Of a DNA stretch of 64,000 bases, positions 21,208 to 29,244 are shown piece after piece. The translations under genes were made by a program, and so were the position numbers. The DNA comes from Sphingobacterium sp. SRCM116780 (GTDB taxonomy: Bacteria > Bacteroidota > Bacteroidia > Sphingobacteriales > Sphingobacteriaceae). The DNA lies in NCBI RefSeq assembly GCF_021442025.1, contig NZ_CP090446.1:3720001-3784000 (forward strand), read 5' to 3'. Below the pieces are notes generated by a model, which did not search any database, was not told the DNA's origin, and saw nothing but the letters and a program-made list of their open reading frames with translations. The first letter of the stretch is position 1. Every line of letters begins with the position of its first letter.

Positions 21208-22929
21208 TTAGAATAAGTAATACAATTGTGTTAAGGGAAGTTTTTCCGCTGGTTCACATGTAATATATTCTCCATCTACTGTTACTTTGTAGTTTTCAGG
21301 ATTCACTTCAATCGAAGGAGTTTTATCGTTATGAATAAGATCTGCTTTAGAAATATTTCTACAGTTTTTAACTGGAAGAATCATTTTATCCAGCTTATAT
21401 GAAGAAATAGAGCCATTATCGATCGATATTTGCGAAACAAAAGTAGCACAGGTGCCAAATTTAGCTTTACCATGAGCACCAAACATATTTCTGTAAATTA
21501 CAGGCTGCGGTGTCGGGATAGAGGCATTAGGATCGCCCATTTTTGCAGCAACAACAAAACCACCTTTTAAGATCATCTCTGGTTTTACGCCAAATAATGC
21601 AGGTTTCCAGATCACCAAGTCTGCTAATTTACCAGGCTCAATAGATCCTACATATGCTGAAATACCATGAGCAATCGCTGGATTTATGGTATACTTTGCA
21701 ATGTATCTTTTAGCGCGGTAATTATCATTCTCAACTCCTTGATCTTCTTTCAACGATCCTCTTTGCTCCTTCATTTTGCTTGCTGTCTGCCAGGTTCTTG
21801 TGATCACCTCTCCTGGTCTTCCCATCGCCTGAGAATCGGAACTCATGATGCTGAATACGCCCATATCATGCAGGATATCTTCTGCAGCAATTGTTTCAGG
21901 ACGAATACGTGAATCAGCAAAAGCAACATCTTCAGGAATATTTTTACTTAAATGGTGACATACCATCAGCATATCCAGATGCTCATCTATTGTATTGATT
22001 GTATAAGGACGTGTAGGGTTTGTTGAGGCAGGAAGCACATTTGGATACATTGCCGCTTTAATAATGTCGGGTGCATGTCCTCCTCCTGCTCCTTCTGTAT
22101 GGAAGGTATGAATTACTCTTCCATTTATTGCTGTCATCGTATCTTCCAAAAAGCCACCTTCATTCAACGTGTCGGTATGGATGGCCACTTGAACATCATA
22201 TTTATCAGCTACTTTTAATGAAGCATCAATGGTTGCAGTCGTTGCTCCCCAGTCCTCATGAATTTTTATTCCCAAGGCCCCTGCTTCTACCTGTTCTTCA
22301 ATAGGTTCTTCAGCAGAACAGTTCCCTTTTCCAAAAAATCCTAAGTTCATCGGATATTCTTCTGCTGCCTCCAACATTTTTTGAATATTGAACTTTCCTG
22401 GAGTACAAGTCGTCGCATTTGTTCCATCATTAGGACCTGTCCCACCTCCTATCATAGTGGTAATTCCACTATATAAAGAAGTATCAATCTGCTGCGGGCA
22501 GATATAATGGATGTGCGTATCAATTCCTCCTGCTGTTACAATATATCCTTTTCCTCCATGAACTTCTGTAGAAGCGCCAATGATCATATTGGGAGAAACT
22601 CCATCCATAGTATCAGGATTTCCTGCCTTACCAACACCGACGATTTTCCCATCTTTGATACCAATATCCGCTTTTACAATTCCCCAGTGATCAATTATTG
22701 TCGCTCCTGTGATACAAAGGTCTAATACACCCTCGTCTCTTTTTGCACTTACATTCTGACCCATTCCGTCACGAACTGTTTTTCCACCGCCGAATACTGC
22801 TTCATCGCCATAATGAGTGAAATCTTTTTCTATCTCAATAATTAATTCGGTATCTCCTAGACGGATTCTATCTCCGGCTGTAGGTCCTAATATATTGGCG
22901 TATTGTTTTCTGTCTACCTTTAAACTCAT
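21208..22929 (-). CDS. ureC: Urease alpha subunit
   Basis: The 573-aa catalytic subunit hydrolyses urea to ammonia and carbamate with two nickel ions. All active-site residues are found: His139 and His141 in [10 protein letters not shown], the carbamylated Lys222 in [11 protein letters not shown], His251 in [10 protein letters not shown], His277 in [14 protein letters not shown], the flap Cys324 and His325 in MVCHHLSKN, and Asp365 in [10 protein letters not shown]. Length is about that of Klebsiella UreC (567). The frame is intact, so the enzyme should be functional. It is followed by the barrel gene after 67 bases. Confidence 0.99.
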
Positions 22930-26120: not shown

Positions 26121-27200
26121 TTACTTAATGACAACCTGAATTCCTGCCATTTTAGCCTTGTATTTGATCTTTTCAATCAATCCATAATAACTCCAATTGC
26201 GAAGAAGAAATTCATCTTTATTGTATTCATTGACTAACAACAGTGTTCCAGCTTGCGATTTCACACAGATATCGATCAATCGACGACTATAGAGATGAAG
26301 TCGGCTATCCACATAGTTCTTTTCCTTTTCATTATAATGCTCTAAACTTTTGAGTTTTCTTTTTCTACCGTTTCCGCCTTTGTTATAGTGGGAAGCCTTT
26401 TGCAAACGATGTCGCGCCGCTTGTATTGCCATAAGTCGATATAGAAACTCTTCCTTAGTCCCGATTTGATAACGGTCTTTATTAACAAGAACTGAAATTG
26501 GATGTTCTAGAGAAAGGGAAGCCTCTGCAGTGATATGACCTTTAAGAATATGATCTTCTTGAGGCAGCTCCAAAGATAAAAGTAAAAAGATTTTATTTTT
26601 TATAATCTTAATGGAGCTTGCACAAACCTTTATCTGACCCACCAGAGTACGTTGTAATAATACGCGTTTGTCAGAGTGATCTTTACCAAGATAAGTACGA
26701 AAAGGAATTTTAAATAAATCAAATTTAAAATCCAGCCCATTTCTACCGTTTCTTAATTGAATAGCTTTTGCGGAGAAAGGAATAGGCATATCTTTTTTAT
26801 AATTCCGCAAAGAACGTTGACCTTTCCAGTAAGCCAATCGGTCGGTTTGAAAATTTTTGATCAAAGTTGTATTAACTTGAAAAAGGATATCTGATGGAAC
26901 CTGATCTTTAAAATAACTGGAAAGGAGTAGGTAGGTTGTATTTATCCGAGAAGTTATCAATATTCCTTCATCGTCCTTTTCATCATTGGTCAATTTGGTC
27001 TTAATATCAGTTTTGAGGTAAATAAGATCCTTTAAATTTTCTTGGATATATTGATGTGTTAGAACAAGATTGGCACCTCGAAAGACAATATCCTGCCATT
27101 CGAGTAGTTTTTTGAAATACGCGACTCGTTTTTCTTTATCGTCAGAATCGATAAAAACTTGGATCTTTCGTGTCAGTATGATGGTCTTAGTCCTGTTCAT
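26121..27200 (-). CDS. TnpB/Cas12-like protein, predicted nuclease-dead, truncated before RuvC-III
   Basis: A 359-aa basic protein. The C-terminal 140 residues read like the RuvC part of TnpB/Cas12f: ASLSLEHPISVLV (225-238) stands where RuvC-I normally has its Asp; here Ser or Glu is found. A basic helical insert follows (YRLMAIQAARHRLQ to YNKGGNGRKRKLKS, then YSRRLIDICVK, 254-314), then GTLLLVNEYN (318-327) at the RuvC-II place and NWSYYGLIEKIKYKAKMAGIQVV (335-357), the helix and strand that in TnpB precede the third Asp and the zinc ribbon. The protein ends two residues later; none of the frames after the stop encode the missing part. No tnpA is near. DNA/RNA binding without cleavage is inferred. 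It starts at the edge of a four-unit repeat array. Other possibility: a different RuvC-like family. Confidence 0.72.
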   Translation of the reverse strand: MNRTKTIILTRKIQVFIDSDDKEKRVAYFKKLLEWQDIVFRGANLVLTHQYIQENLKDLIYLKTDIKTKLTNDEKDDEGILITSRINTTYLLLSSYFKDQVPSDILFQVNTTLIKNFQTDRLAYWKGQRSLRNYKKDMPIPFSAKAIQLRNGRNGLDFKFDLFKIPFRTYLGKDHSDKRVLLQRTLVGQIKVCASSIKIIKNKIFLLLSLELPQEDHILKGHITAEASLSLEHPISVLVNKDRYQIGTKEEFLYRLMAIQAARHRLQKASHYNKGGNGRKRKLKSLEHYNEKEKNYVDSRLHLYSRRLIDICVKSQAGTLLLVNEYNKDEFLLRNWSYYGLIEKIKYKAKMAGIQVVIK

Positions 27201-27219
27201 TTTTTAAAGGGTTAATCGT

Positions 27220-27291
27220 ATAACACAACTTAAGGTAACCCCCAGGCTCTTGACGGATTTTGTGGCAATGAGGCTGCCTAAGCTGTGTTAT
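27220..27291 (-). ncRNA. Candidate structured RNA, unit 1 hairpin
   Basis: The outer stem ATAACACA/TGTGTTAT and inner stem CTTA(A)GG/CCTAAG close a loop with TCTTGACGG. It lies 19 bases upstream of the TnpB-like ATG, so it is in the gene's leader if transcribed from upstream. Confidence 0.5.
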
Positions 27292-27401
27292 AATATCGTA
27301 TATTGGTATTGAAGTGTACGTTCCGATTTAGGAAAGGCTATTGCTTTTCAATGTTTTTTGTACACGTTTATTCATATATAGTTTTTTAAAGGGTTAATCG
27401 T

Positions 27402-27473
27402 ATAACACAACTTAAGGCAACCCCCAGGCTCTTGACGGATTTTGTGGCAATGAGGCTGCCTAAGCTGTGTTAT
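27402..27473 (-). ncRNA. Candidate structured RNA, unit 2 hairpin
   Basis: It differs from unit 1 at a stem position where T-G becomes C-G, which keeps pairing. A three-base difference (TCG versus GCA) lies just outside the stem. Confidence 0.5.
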
Positions 27474-27582
27474 AATAGCATATATTGGTATTGAAGTGTA
27501 CGTTCCGATTTAGGAAAGGCTATTGCTTTTCAATGATTTTGTACACGTTTATTCATATATAGTTTTTTAAAGGGTTAATCGT

Positions 27583-27656
27583 ATAACACAACTTAGGACA
27601 GCCCTAGGGCTCTTGACGGCTTTTTTGTGAAACTAAGGCTGCCTAAGTCGTGTTAT
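27583..27656 (-). ncRNA. Candidate structured RNA, unit 3 hairpin
   Basis: The stem here is the most complete: CTTAGG(A)CAGCC with GGCTGCCTAAG. The inner loop differs strongly from units 1 and 2 but keeps TCTTGACGG. Confidence 0.5.
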
Positions 27657-27773
27657 AATAAAATATATTGATACTGAAATGTACGCTCCGATTTAGAGAA
27701 ACCCGATGCATGCAACACTTTGTTATAGTAAAACTCTGTTCATGTTCTTTAGAAGAGTTAATGTCTAAAACAA

Positions 27774-27826
27774 CTTAAGGCAGCCCAAGGGTCTTGACGG
27801 GTTTTGCGGAACAAGGGCTGCCTAAG
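27774..27826 (-). ncRNA. Candidate structured RNA, unit 4 hairpin (diverged)
   Basis: CTTAAGGCAGCCC pairs with GGGCTGCCTAAG with one bulged A. The outer ATAACAC stem has been lost while the inner stem and TCTTGACGG remain, which marks the inner part as the conserved core. Confidence 0.45.
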
Positions 27827-27963
27827 CTGTATGGGTTATCAATAGAACTTATTGAGATGTAGTTGTTTATTTTTGTATAGCTATTTTTAATAGTGCATGT
27901 GTTGTGTATATCTTTACAAACGGAGTTTCTCAATAAGTCACCTTAATAAATAAGAAACGAACG

Positions 27964-28015
27964 ATGATGAAGATATTTAGCGAGTGGCTATTGCCCTCAC
28001 CCTAAGGCATCACAA
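27964..28015 (+). repeat. Second repeat family, copy A (short reading frame)
   Basis: This copy matches copy B at 28309-28356 over about 48 bp, including GTGGCTATTGCCCTCACC. In frame it reads KIFSEWLLPSP and then stops. The differences to copy B within those codons are mostly silent third-position changes (AGC/AGT, CCC/CCT), which hints at former coding function. The hairpin GAG-T-GGC-TATT-GCC-CTC is another explanation. Confidence 0.6.
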
Positions 28016-28260
28016 GAAACCTCTTTTCATGGTAGATGAATAGTTAAATATTGCTGAGGGTCTGATTTATCATAAAAAAATAGATATTTATCTCCCTTTT
28101 ATAATAAACATAAACATAATTGTGTATAGCTTTCAAATCAGGAGCCTTAACAAGACCAATATGAACAGACCCTAATATCGTATTTACTCTTTATAAGTTG
28201 CGGTATATACAATACCGATGGTAGTATATGCATTCAAAGATCTTATCAGATGATTTTTGA

Positions 28261-28410
28261 ATGGATATTGACTTTCTATTGAAAGAGCAATCCATGTTTA
28301 TGAAATTAAAAGTATTTAGTGAGTGGCTATTGCCCTCACCTTATGGCTTCACAAGCAGCCTCAAATTCTTTATCAATACCAATAAGTCAAAGAACATATT
28401 GAACGGATGA
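28261..28410 (+). CDS. Possible 49-aa small protein containing repeat copy B
   Basis: An open frame begins ATG at 28261 after an in-frame stop and reads MDIDFLLKEQSMFMKLKVFS, continues with EWLLPSPYGFTSS and ends KSKNILNG. Copy A shares FSEWLLPSP with synonymous changes. I do not recognise the peptide. No clear ribosome binding site; it may be a gene remnant, a leader peptide or a chance frame on a structured repeat. Confidence 0.3.
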   Translation: MDIDFLLKEQSMFMKLKVFSEWLLPSPYGFTSSLKFFINTNKSKNILNG

Positions 28411-28706
28411 TAGAAATAACGAAGGAAAATATTTGCATAAAATTTCCATTGCGGTATTCTATCCCACATCTCGATAATCATTTTTTTTGTTGATCCTAGG
28501 CTTTGTTGGCTGTTGCTCTCAGGTTATAATCGGGTTATGAGCCATAGGATTTTAAGGTAATTTTAATAATTCTCTCTGCTATTGACAGGAGAAATTATAC
28601 TTGTTTTTCAAATAGAATTTTTCATTTTTTTGTTCTCTTCGCGAGTTCATAATGCATAGGCTATCATTCTCTGCCTTTGTTATACAAATATAAAACTTAA
28701 TATTTA
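28411..28706. other. Gene-free stretch with a third diverged motif copy
   Basis: No gene is seen. TTGGCTGTTGCTCTCAGGTTAT at 28508-28529 resembles GTGGCTATTGCCCTCACCTTAT of copy B, and is followed by CGGGTTATGAGCC. The rest is AT-rich. Confidence 0.4.
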
Positions 28707-28751
28707 ATTGTGCAAGATTTTTTATTTTTTATTTGCAGTACGATTGTGCAA
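28707..28751. promoter_or_regulatory. Direct repeat ATTGTGCAA x2 upstream of XRE gene
   Basis: The nonamer occurs at 28707-28715 and 28743-28751, 36 bases apart, just before the XRE gene. Such spaced copies on the same face of DNA are typical of autoregulatory operators. Confidence 0.5.
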
Positions 28752-28770
28752 ATAATTATTTTATTTGTTT

Positions 28771-29244
28771 GTGTCAAGAACTAATCAAAATATCCTAGAA
28801 TATATTGGCGTTCAATTTCGTTTGAAAAGGGAGGAACTTTACTTTTCACAAAAAGATATTGCTGATATGACAGGAATTACCACTAATACAGTCTCTACAG
28901 TAGAAAGAGGAAAGGGAACTACTCTGAACAATTTCTTGTCGATTTGTCGTGCTTTGAGTATACAACCAAAGCAACTGTTTGAACAAGATATGGATCTGAC
29001 ACCTCTATACGAACTTCCTCCTCTAAATAAGCGTAGGTTAGAAATCACACAGAAGCTGGATGATTTGGTGTACAATTCTGATTTCTTTGATACGCCAAGA
29101 CGTGTCTCGGAAGTTTTATCGGCATTGAAATCGGATAAAACTGACAGTAACAAATTTTCTGTATACTTAGCAAGTTATTGCAAAGAAGACGTCCTAGAGT
29201 ACACAAAACAAGGTAATTTTAACCGTTATAGTAAAAAAAGATAA
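28771..29244 (+). CDS. XRE family transcriptional regulator
   Basis: A helix-turn-helix protein of about 157 aa. The HTH is FSQKDIADMTGITTNTVSTVERGKGTTLNNFLSICRAL at residues 25-62. A helical C-terminal part follows (KLDDLVYNSDFF, RVSEVLSAL) and a basic tail (FNRYSKKR). I used GTG 28771; TTG 28765 is also possible, no ATG is available. It is divergent from the TnpB-like gene, with 1.5 kb of repeats between. It may control that locus or itself through the ATTGTGCAA repeats. Confidence 0.85.
   Translation: MSRTNQNILEYIGVQFRLKREELYFSQKDIADMTGITTNTVSTVERGKGTTLNNFLSICRALSIQPKQLFEQDMDLTPLYELPPLNKRRLEITQKLDDLVYNSDFFDTPRRVSEVLSALKSDKTDSNKFSVYLASYCKEDVLEYTKQGNFNRYSKKR

Follow-up and report, generated by a model that had tools for sequence, protein, structure and literature searches.

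A Covarying RNA Hairpin Repeated Fourfold ahead of a Sigma-less, Nuclease-dead Cas12f Gene in Sphingobacterium

The window, the whole 64,000-nucleotide stretch analyzed here, comes from a single-contig, 4.28-Mb genome of the genus Sphingobacterium and carries four tandem units ahead of a gene for a nuclease-dead Cas12f (dCas12f). Each unit contains one 14-bp hairpin, named element B, which on comparative evidence is a covarying RNA hairpin under selection and belongs to an apparently undescribed family. The dCas12f protein is of a known kind, and the locus, which has no sigma gene and holds B in four copies, is a new form of that kind. High confidence is attached to the identity of B and to the rejection of B as a guide RNA of the neighboring protein. 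The preferred reading of the locus as a whole, held with moderate confidence, places scaffold-like elements (element A), guides, and B in one transcript that would be controlled by an XRE regulator, with B as the distal hairpin or leader of sigma-dCas12f; the specific function of B is proposed with distinctly less confidence than this arrangement. The features of the locus are collected in Table I.

Table I. Features of the dCas12f locus in window coordinates
Feature	Position	Strand	Basis or remark
Nuclease-dead Cas12f, 359 aa	26121-27200	minus	PDB 9n9c, E = 6e-112; start codon 21 bp past unit 1, the nearest B
Element B, unit 1	27222-27289	minus	CM R1, 56.8 bits; closest to the dCas12f gene; one A-C stem mismatch
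TTCAATACCAATATA box 5' of the unit 1 hairpin	27299-27313	minus	Sequence
Element B, unit 2	27404-27471	minus	CM R1, 60.8 bits
Element B, unit 3	27585-27654	minus	CM R1, 68.6 bits
Element B, unit 4	27767-27833	minus	CM R1, 61 bits; 14-bp core retained, outer stem missing
Degenerate repeat handle (AAAGATATACACAAC) and guide g2 (ACATGCACTATT..)	27886-27915	minus	Sequence comparison
Element A copy 2, predicted tracrRNA-like scaffold, tail AAATATCTT	27963-28023	minus	CM R2, 70 bits
Degenerate CRISPR repeat handle (..GAAAGCTATACACAAT) and guide g1 (TATGTTTATGTTTATT)	28103-28139	minus	g1 itself at 28103-28118
Element A copy 1, predicted tracrRNA-like scaffold	28302-28362	minus	CM R2, 78 bits
Likely XRE operator TTTGCACAAT and Bacteroidota -7 box TATATTTG, facing A and B	28685-28752	minus	Operator consensus TTTGCGCAAA
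XRE/HTH regulator, divergent to the A/B transcript	28765-29244	plus	Pfam HTH_3, 5e-8

The units span about 27199-27860 with a start-to-start spacing of 182, 181, and 182 bp. A covariance model (CM) of the hairpin returns four copies in the window, all on the minus strand, with E values of 9e-15 to 1e-11 that locate the copies and do not prove a family, the model having been built from the same four units. The minus strand is also the coding strand of the adjacent TnpB-like gene. Because units 1 and 2 are 97% identical, the four units by themselves are weak evidence of covariation and the proof is provided by the relatives. In an alignment of 26 sequences, composed of the four window units and 22 congener sequences, all 14 pairs of the stem have changes on both sides and 91.5% of the stem cells are paired. 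The covariation score of 0.648 compares with at most 0.216 for slid partners and is reached by none of 500 shuffles, and covariation is also seen when 30 distinct matches are aligned to the model. The initial annotation had described four tandem units with a conserved, covarying hairpin and selection acting on the structure; the four model copies and the 26-sequence alignment bear out the first statement and lend strong support to the second. The outer stem (TATAACACA/TGTGTTATA) occurs in units 1-3 only, with unit 4 keeping the 14-bp core, as had been seen, and the relatives doing likewise. A further detail, a T-G pair said to become C-G between units 1 and 2, does not hold, the minus strand having an A-C mismatch in the one and a G-C pair in the other.

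Read on the minus strand, the B stem contains 40 G-U or U-G cells compared with 11 A-C or C-A cells (counted by hand), an excess which suggests that the RNA has the minus-strand sequence. A DNA palindrome is disfavored as an explanation of B, the G-U excess being confined to one strand. The box located 5' of the unit 1 hairpin is repeated in unit 2 and is present in a diverged form in units 3 and 4, and in many congener loci it is conserved 5' of B as CAATACCAAT.

No family in Rfam 15 matches B or A at the gathering threshold, and low-threshold scans give weak, implausible matches only. A separate Rfam match in the window, to 5_ureB_sRNA (53.8 bits, 22479-22772, plus strand), lies on the strand opposite to the urease alpha gene (21208-22929) and is probably a reflection of conserved urease coding sequence. 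In 201 genomes of the family, representing 25 genera, B is present only in Sphingobacterium. A BLAST search of 93 congeners with one unit gives, beyond the locus, a single clear match, of 62 bases in G076, so that a covariance model is needed to find B. No paper describing B was found, which together with the absence from Rfam is not proof of novelty.

The 359-aa product of the TnpB-like gene is by homology a nuclease-dead Cas12f. It matches 9n9c_A, a nuclease-deactivated Cas12f, over residues 5-364 of 365, with active Cas12f and TnpB chains in the PDB giving weaker matches and the NCBIfam guided_TnpB model scoring 48 bits, below its cut-off. The description of the neighbor as TnpB-like in the initial annotation was sound in that the full-length match is to a protein of the RNA-guided type. 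At RuvC motif 1 the VGVDLGI of active Cas12f aligns with AEASLSL, the first aspartate being replaced (DLG versus SLS), and at motif 2 the active MERLTG region aligns with VNEYNK. Motif 3 is absent, as the protein stops before it, and this end point is common to the congeners. The N terminus reads MNRTKTIILTRKI, compared with M(A/E)xxTxxLTRKI in the relatives. The frame is intact with a pN of about 0.12; synonymous sites are saturated in every comparison with a relative, for which reason pN and pS replace dN/dS here, and much of the history they record may be older than the loss of sigma.

Comparison of Sphingobacterium loci gives the usual order as XRE, then A with repeat and guide, then B, sigma, and dCas12f. 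Co-occurrence was counted in 60 congeners, 36 with an intact dCas12f and 24 without, which share ancestry so that the counts are not independent. B is found in 33 of the 60, comprising 27 of the 36 genomes with dCas12f and 6 of the 24 without, and in the remaining nine dCas12f genomes it is missing or too diverged to detect. A covariance-model search for co-occurrence had been suggested at the outset, with equal presence of the units in genomes without the gene as the sign against a link between the two; the units are enriched with dCas12f but are not confined to it, and the six genomes without an intact dCas12f count in part against the link. The cas1 gene is present in 5 of the 60 congeners, 3 of them among the 36 dCas12f genomes and there not necessarily linked to the dCas12f locus, so adaptation genes do not as a rule go with dCas12f arrays. 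The genome studied here has a cas1 gene away from the locus (G000:C1:1297273-1298133).

An XRE gene of the same family as that in the window is present in 32 of the 33 B-positive genomes, and its homologs flank both the dCas12f loci and loci where B stands alone with XRE. The second B copies that were fetched adjoin an XRE gene and are divergent to it. These solo XRE-B loci (L128-L147) lie mostly at two conserved chromosomal sites, the first beside an HU gene, often with a terminator directly after B, and the second 5' of a gene encoding a sugar-isomerase-like protein, and B is in tandem at solo sites in G005, G016, G026, G027, and G051. Genomes that lost dCas12f are among those with solo loci, and G026 retains a dCas12f pseudogene. 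The palindrome TTTGCGCAAA occurs in 35 of 45 XRE upstream regions compared with 8.8% of shuffles and is the likely XRE operator. The TATATTTG box is usually placed about 60 nt past the palindrome, facing the array or B, and in the window both are present and slightly diverged.

The solo loci at two conserved sites, the tandem pairs in five genomes, and the terminator directly after B in several HU-site loci favor B as an autonomous small RNA that partners XRE and is amplified to serve as a sponge or to adjust dosage, with its position ahead of sigma-dCas12f being secondary. Such an arrangement is possible but judged unlikely, as B lies right before sigma in many dCas12f loci, which suggests a role in cis too.

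Of the 31 Sphingobacterium loci fetched, 29 have a sigma frame of 266-272 aa immediately 5' of dCas12f and behind CRISPR-like repeats; of the other two, L041 is truncated, and L037 is from the same contig as L076, where tblastn detects the sigma sequence. The frame matches Sigma70_r4 (sigma-70 region 4) and RpoE, chain C of PDB entry 9n9q (E = 9e-31), an entry that also contains a dCas12f chain. This homology together with the adjacent dCas12f identifies the congener loci as putative dCas12f-sigma loci, the sigma partner being identified, and its role assigned, from the sequence and the PDB entry. Complexes of dCas12f and sigma are said to drive RNA-guided transcription, as Hoffmann and colleagues reportedly describe in a 2025 preprint.

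Next to the window dCas12f there is no sigma gene and thus no ECF-like partner, and a search of the genome with two sigma queries finds no ortholog, the best results being ordinary ECF factors of 25% identity or no match. Sigma-less dCas12f loci also occur in G028, G030, and G048, the last carrying a sigma gene elsewhere in the genome. In a second locus of G057 (G057:C1:1172537-1174650), which has B and three copies of A, a broken dCas12f gene is preceded by a sigma frame that is intact. Short frames in the tails of units 2-4 start like the sigma of relatives (ATGAATAAAC and ATGAACAGAG compared with ATGAACAAAC in L017) before running into stops, and this resemblance is suggestive of the units having arisen as duplicates of the sigma leader, with sigma deleted. 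The sigma-like ATG starts followed by stops, and the near identity of units 1 and 2, would also suit neutral tandem duplication of a decaying sigma-operon leader after the loss of sigma. Neutrality is rather improbable, however, since in units 3 and 4, which have diverged, the stem is preserved through changes on both sides, dCas12f still has an intact frame at the pN given above, and two A-guide units persist.

In many congeners the region 5' of B contains repeats of 36 nt with a period of 65-66 bp, which end in ..GGTATACACAAC and are separated by spacers of about 30 nt. Element A, of 61 nt, is also placed upstream of B in one or more copies per congener locus and has two conserved helices with 97.9% of cells paired and a score of 0.286 compared with at most 0.101 for slid partners. 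It is found in all 36 sampled congeners with an intact dCas12f and with a strong score in none of the 24 without, where there is one weak match (G052). The solo B loci contain no element A, the match in L147 sitting at the end of the dCas12f locus of that contig. Variants of the A tail (ATACC, ATACTTT, GTACCC, and ATATCTT) pair with the handle of the next repeat, and own partners form a mean of 6.01 contiguous pairs compared with 5.35 when swapped between loci; the excess is modest, and the own-partner mean is attained in 0 of 500 swaps. In the window A occurs twice, and downstream of each copy come a degenerate repeat handle and a guide; the tail of copy 2 forms seven contiguous pairs with the handle that follows it (ATATCTT with AAGATAT). 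The perfect co-occurrence with dCas12f, the anti-repeat, and the repeat and guide downstream make A the scaffold by every test applied, and by the tests available it is the predicted tracrRNA-like scaffold of dCas12f.

The proposal of the initial annotation that the B units are the guide or scaffold RNA of the TnpB-like protein is unsupported and very improbable, for although B adjoins the gene, is enriched with dCas12f, and has in units 1-3 a 3' flank (GTTGTGTTATAC) resembling an anti-repeat of ..GTATACACAAC, most congener B elements are without such an anti-repeat, B stands alone in dCas12f-less genomes, most congener loci have the sigma start codon and not a conserved guide 20-60 nt after B, and the scaffold role is suited by A, which has an anti-repeat, precedes repeat and guide, and tracks dCas12f.

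Three related species also carry guide g1, in one case with a single substitution. Elsewhere in its own genome the 14-nt core of g1 is matched exactly at one site, which extends to 16 nt in total and lies antisense at the start codon of a susC gene encoding a SusC-type receptor (G000:C1:393933, L081), and exact 14-nt matches are also present at related susC starts in G010 (one) and G043 (two). With one mismatch allowed the match counts equal those of a reversed control, so only exact, position-conserved matches carry weight. A guide that matches antisense across a start codon, as g1 does, would fit repression better than activation. Guide g2 has a second site in its own genome that is aligned with a conserved block of G057, which is itself matched by the G057 guide. 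At the g2 site, near position 1501 of L099 and L100, is a conserved noncoding block (CATGCACTATTTATAAAGAACATT) situated 400-680 bp upstream of a 192-aa frame. A guide-like word, GCGTCCGC(T/A)(T/G)A(T/C)T, recurs after repeat handles in L029, L040, L044, L071, and L072 and suggests a common target in these divergent species. Array guides do not generally target their own sigma operon, the 10-nt match AAAGGACTTT being found only in L017 and L065, from related species, where it sits 51-59 nt upstream of CAATACC.

According to the preferred reading of one XRE-controlled transcript, the divergent promoter beside the XRE operator would produce an RNA running through A, the guides, and B. Element A with repeat and guide would provide the dCas12f guide RNAs, and B would be the distal regulatory hairpin of the transcript, serving as a binding or processing element. 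In cis B may determine how strongly the downstream sigma-dCas12f mRNA is expressed or how stable it is; alone or in tandem B may work as a small RNA, perhaps in trans. A and B, as two RNAs of one locus, could both contact dCas12f. In the genome studied here the B leader appears to have been amplified fourfold, and dCas12f without sigma would most likely serve in RNA-guided repression, not activation, with the susC start codon as one target. A broader proposal, in which the new B family couples an XRE repressor to RNA-guided transcription and a sigma activator has here given way to a sigma-less dCas12f repressor with an amplified B array, is offered tentatively and is doubtful as a whole.

The locus has similarities to several known systems. 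With the dCas12f-sigmaE (RpoE) complexes of Bacteroidota (PDB codes 9n9c, 9n9m, 9n9o, and 9n9q) it shares a full-length homologous dCas12f, and the congeners have in addition the adjacent homologous sigma factor, whereas the genome studied here is sigma-less with four B units in front of dCas12f instead. As in TldR (PMC13418256), a nuclease-dead protein of the TnpB/Cas12 superfamily that has no sigma adjoins guide-RNA units, and one guide matches the start of a gene, here the predicted susC target. The differences from TldR are that the window protein is closest to the Cas12f-sigma proteins and that its guides come after a separate tracr-like element and a CRISPR-like repeat. Type V-F CRISPR-Cas12f with a tracrRNA is similar in the repeats of about 36 nt every 65-66 bp seen in many congeners and in a tracr-like RNA with an anti-repeat, but here the RuvC residues are lost, few of the dCas12f genomes have cas1, and A recurs several times per locus. 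B is like the structured RNAs in Rfam in being a covarying hairpin family and unlike them in matching no family of release 15.

The dCas12f-sigma systems are natural RNA-guided transcription factors, and this locus shows their layout in Sphingobacterium, composed of XRE, the repeated scaffold A, guides, the B leader, sigma, and dCas12f. It yields concrete guides with predicted targets together with a natural sigma-less derivative, and it adds an apparently undescribed covarying RNA family with a directly testable role.
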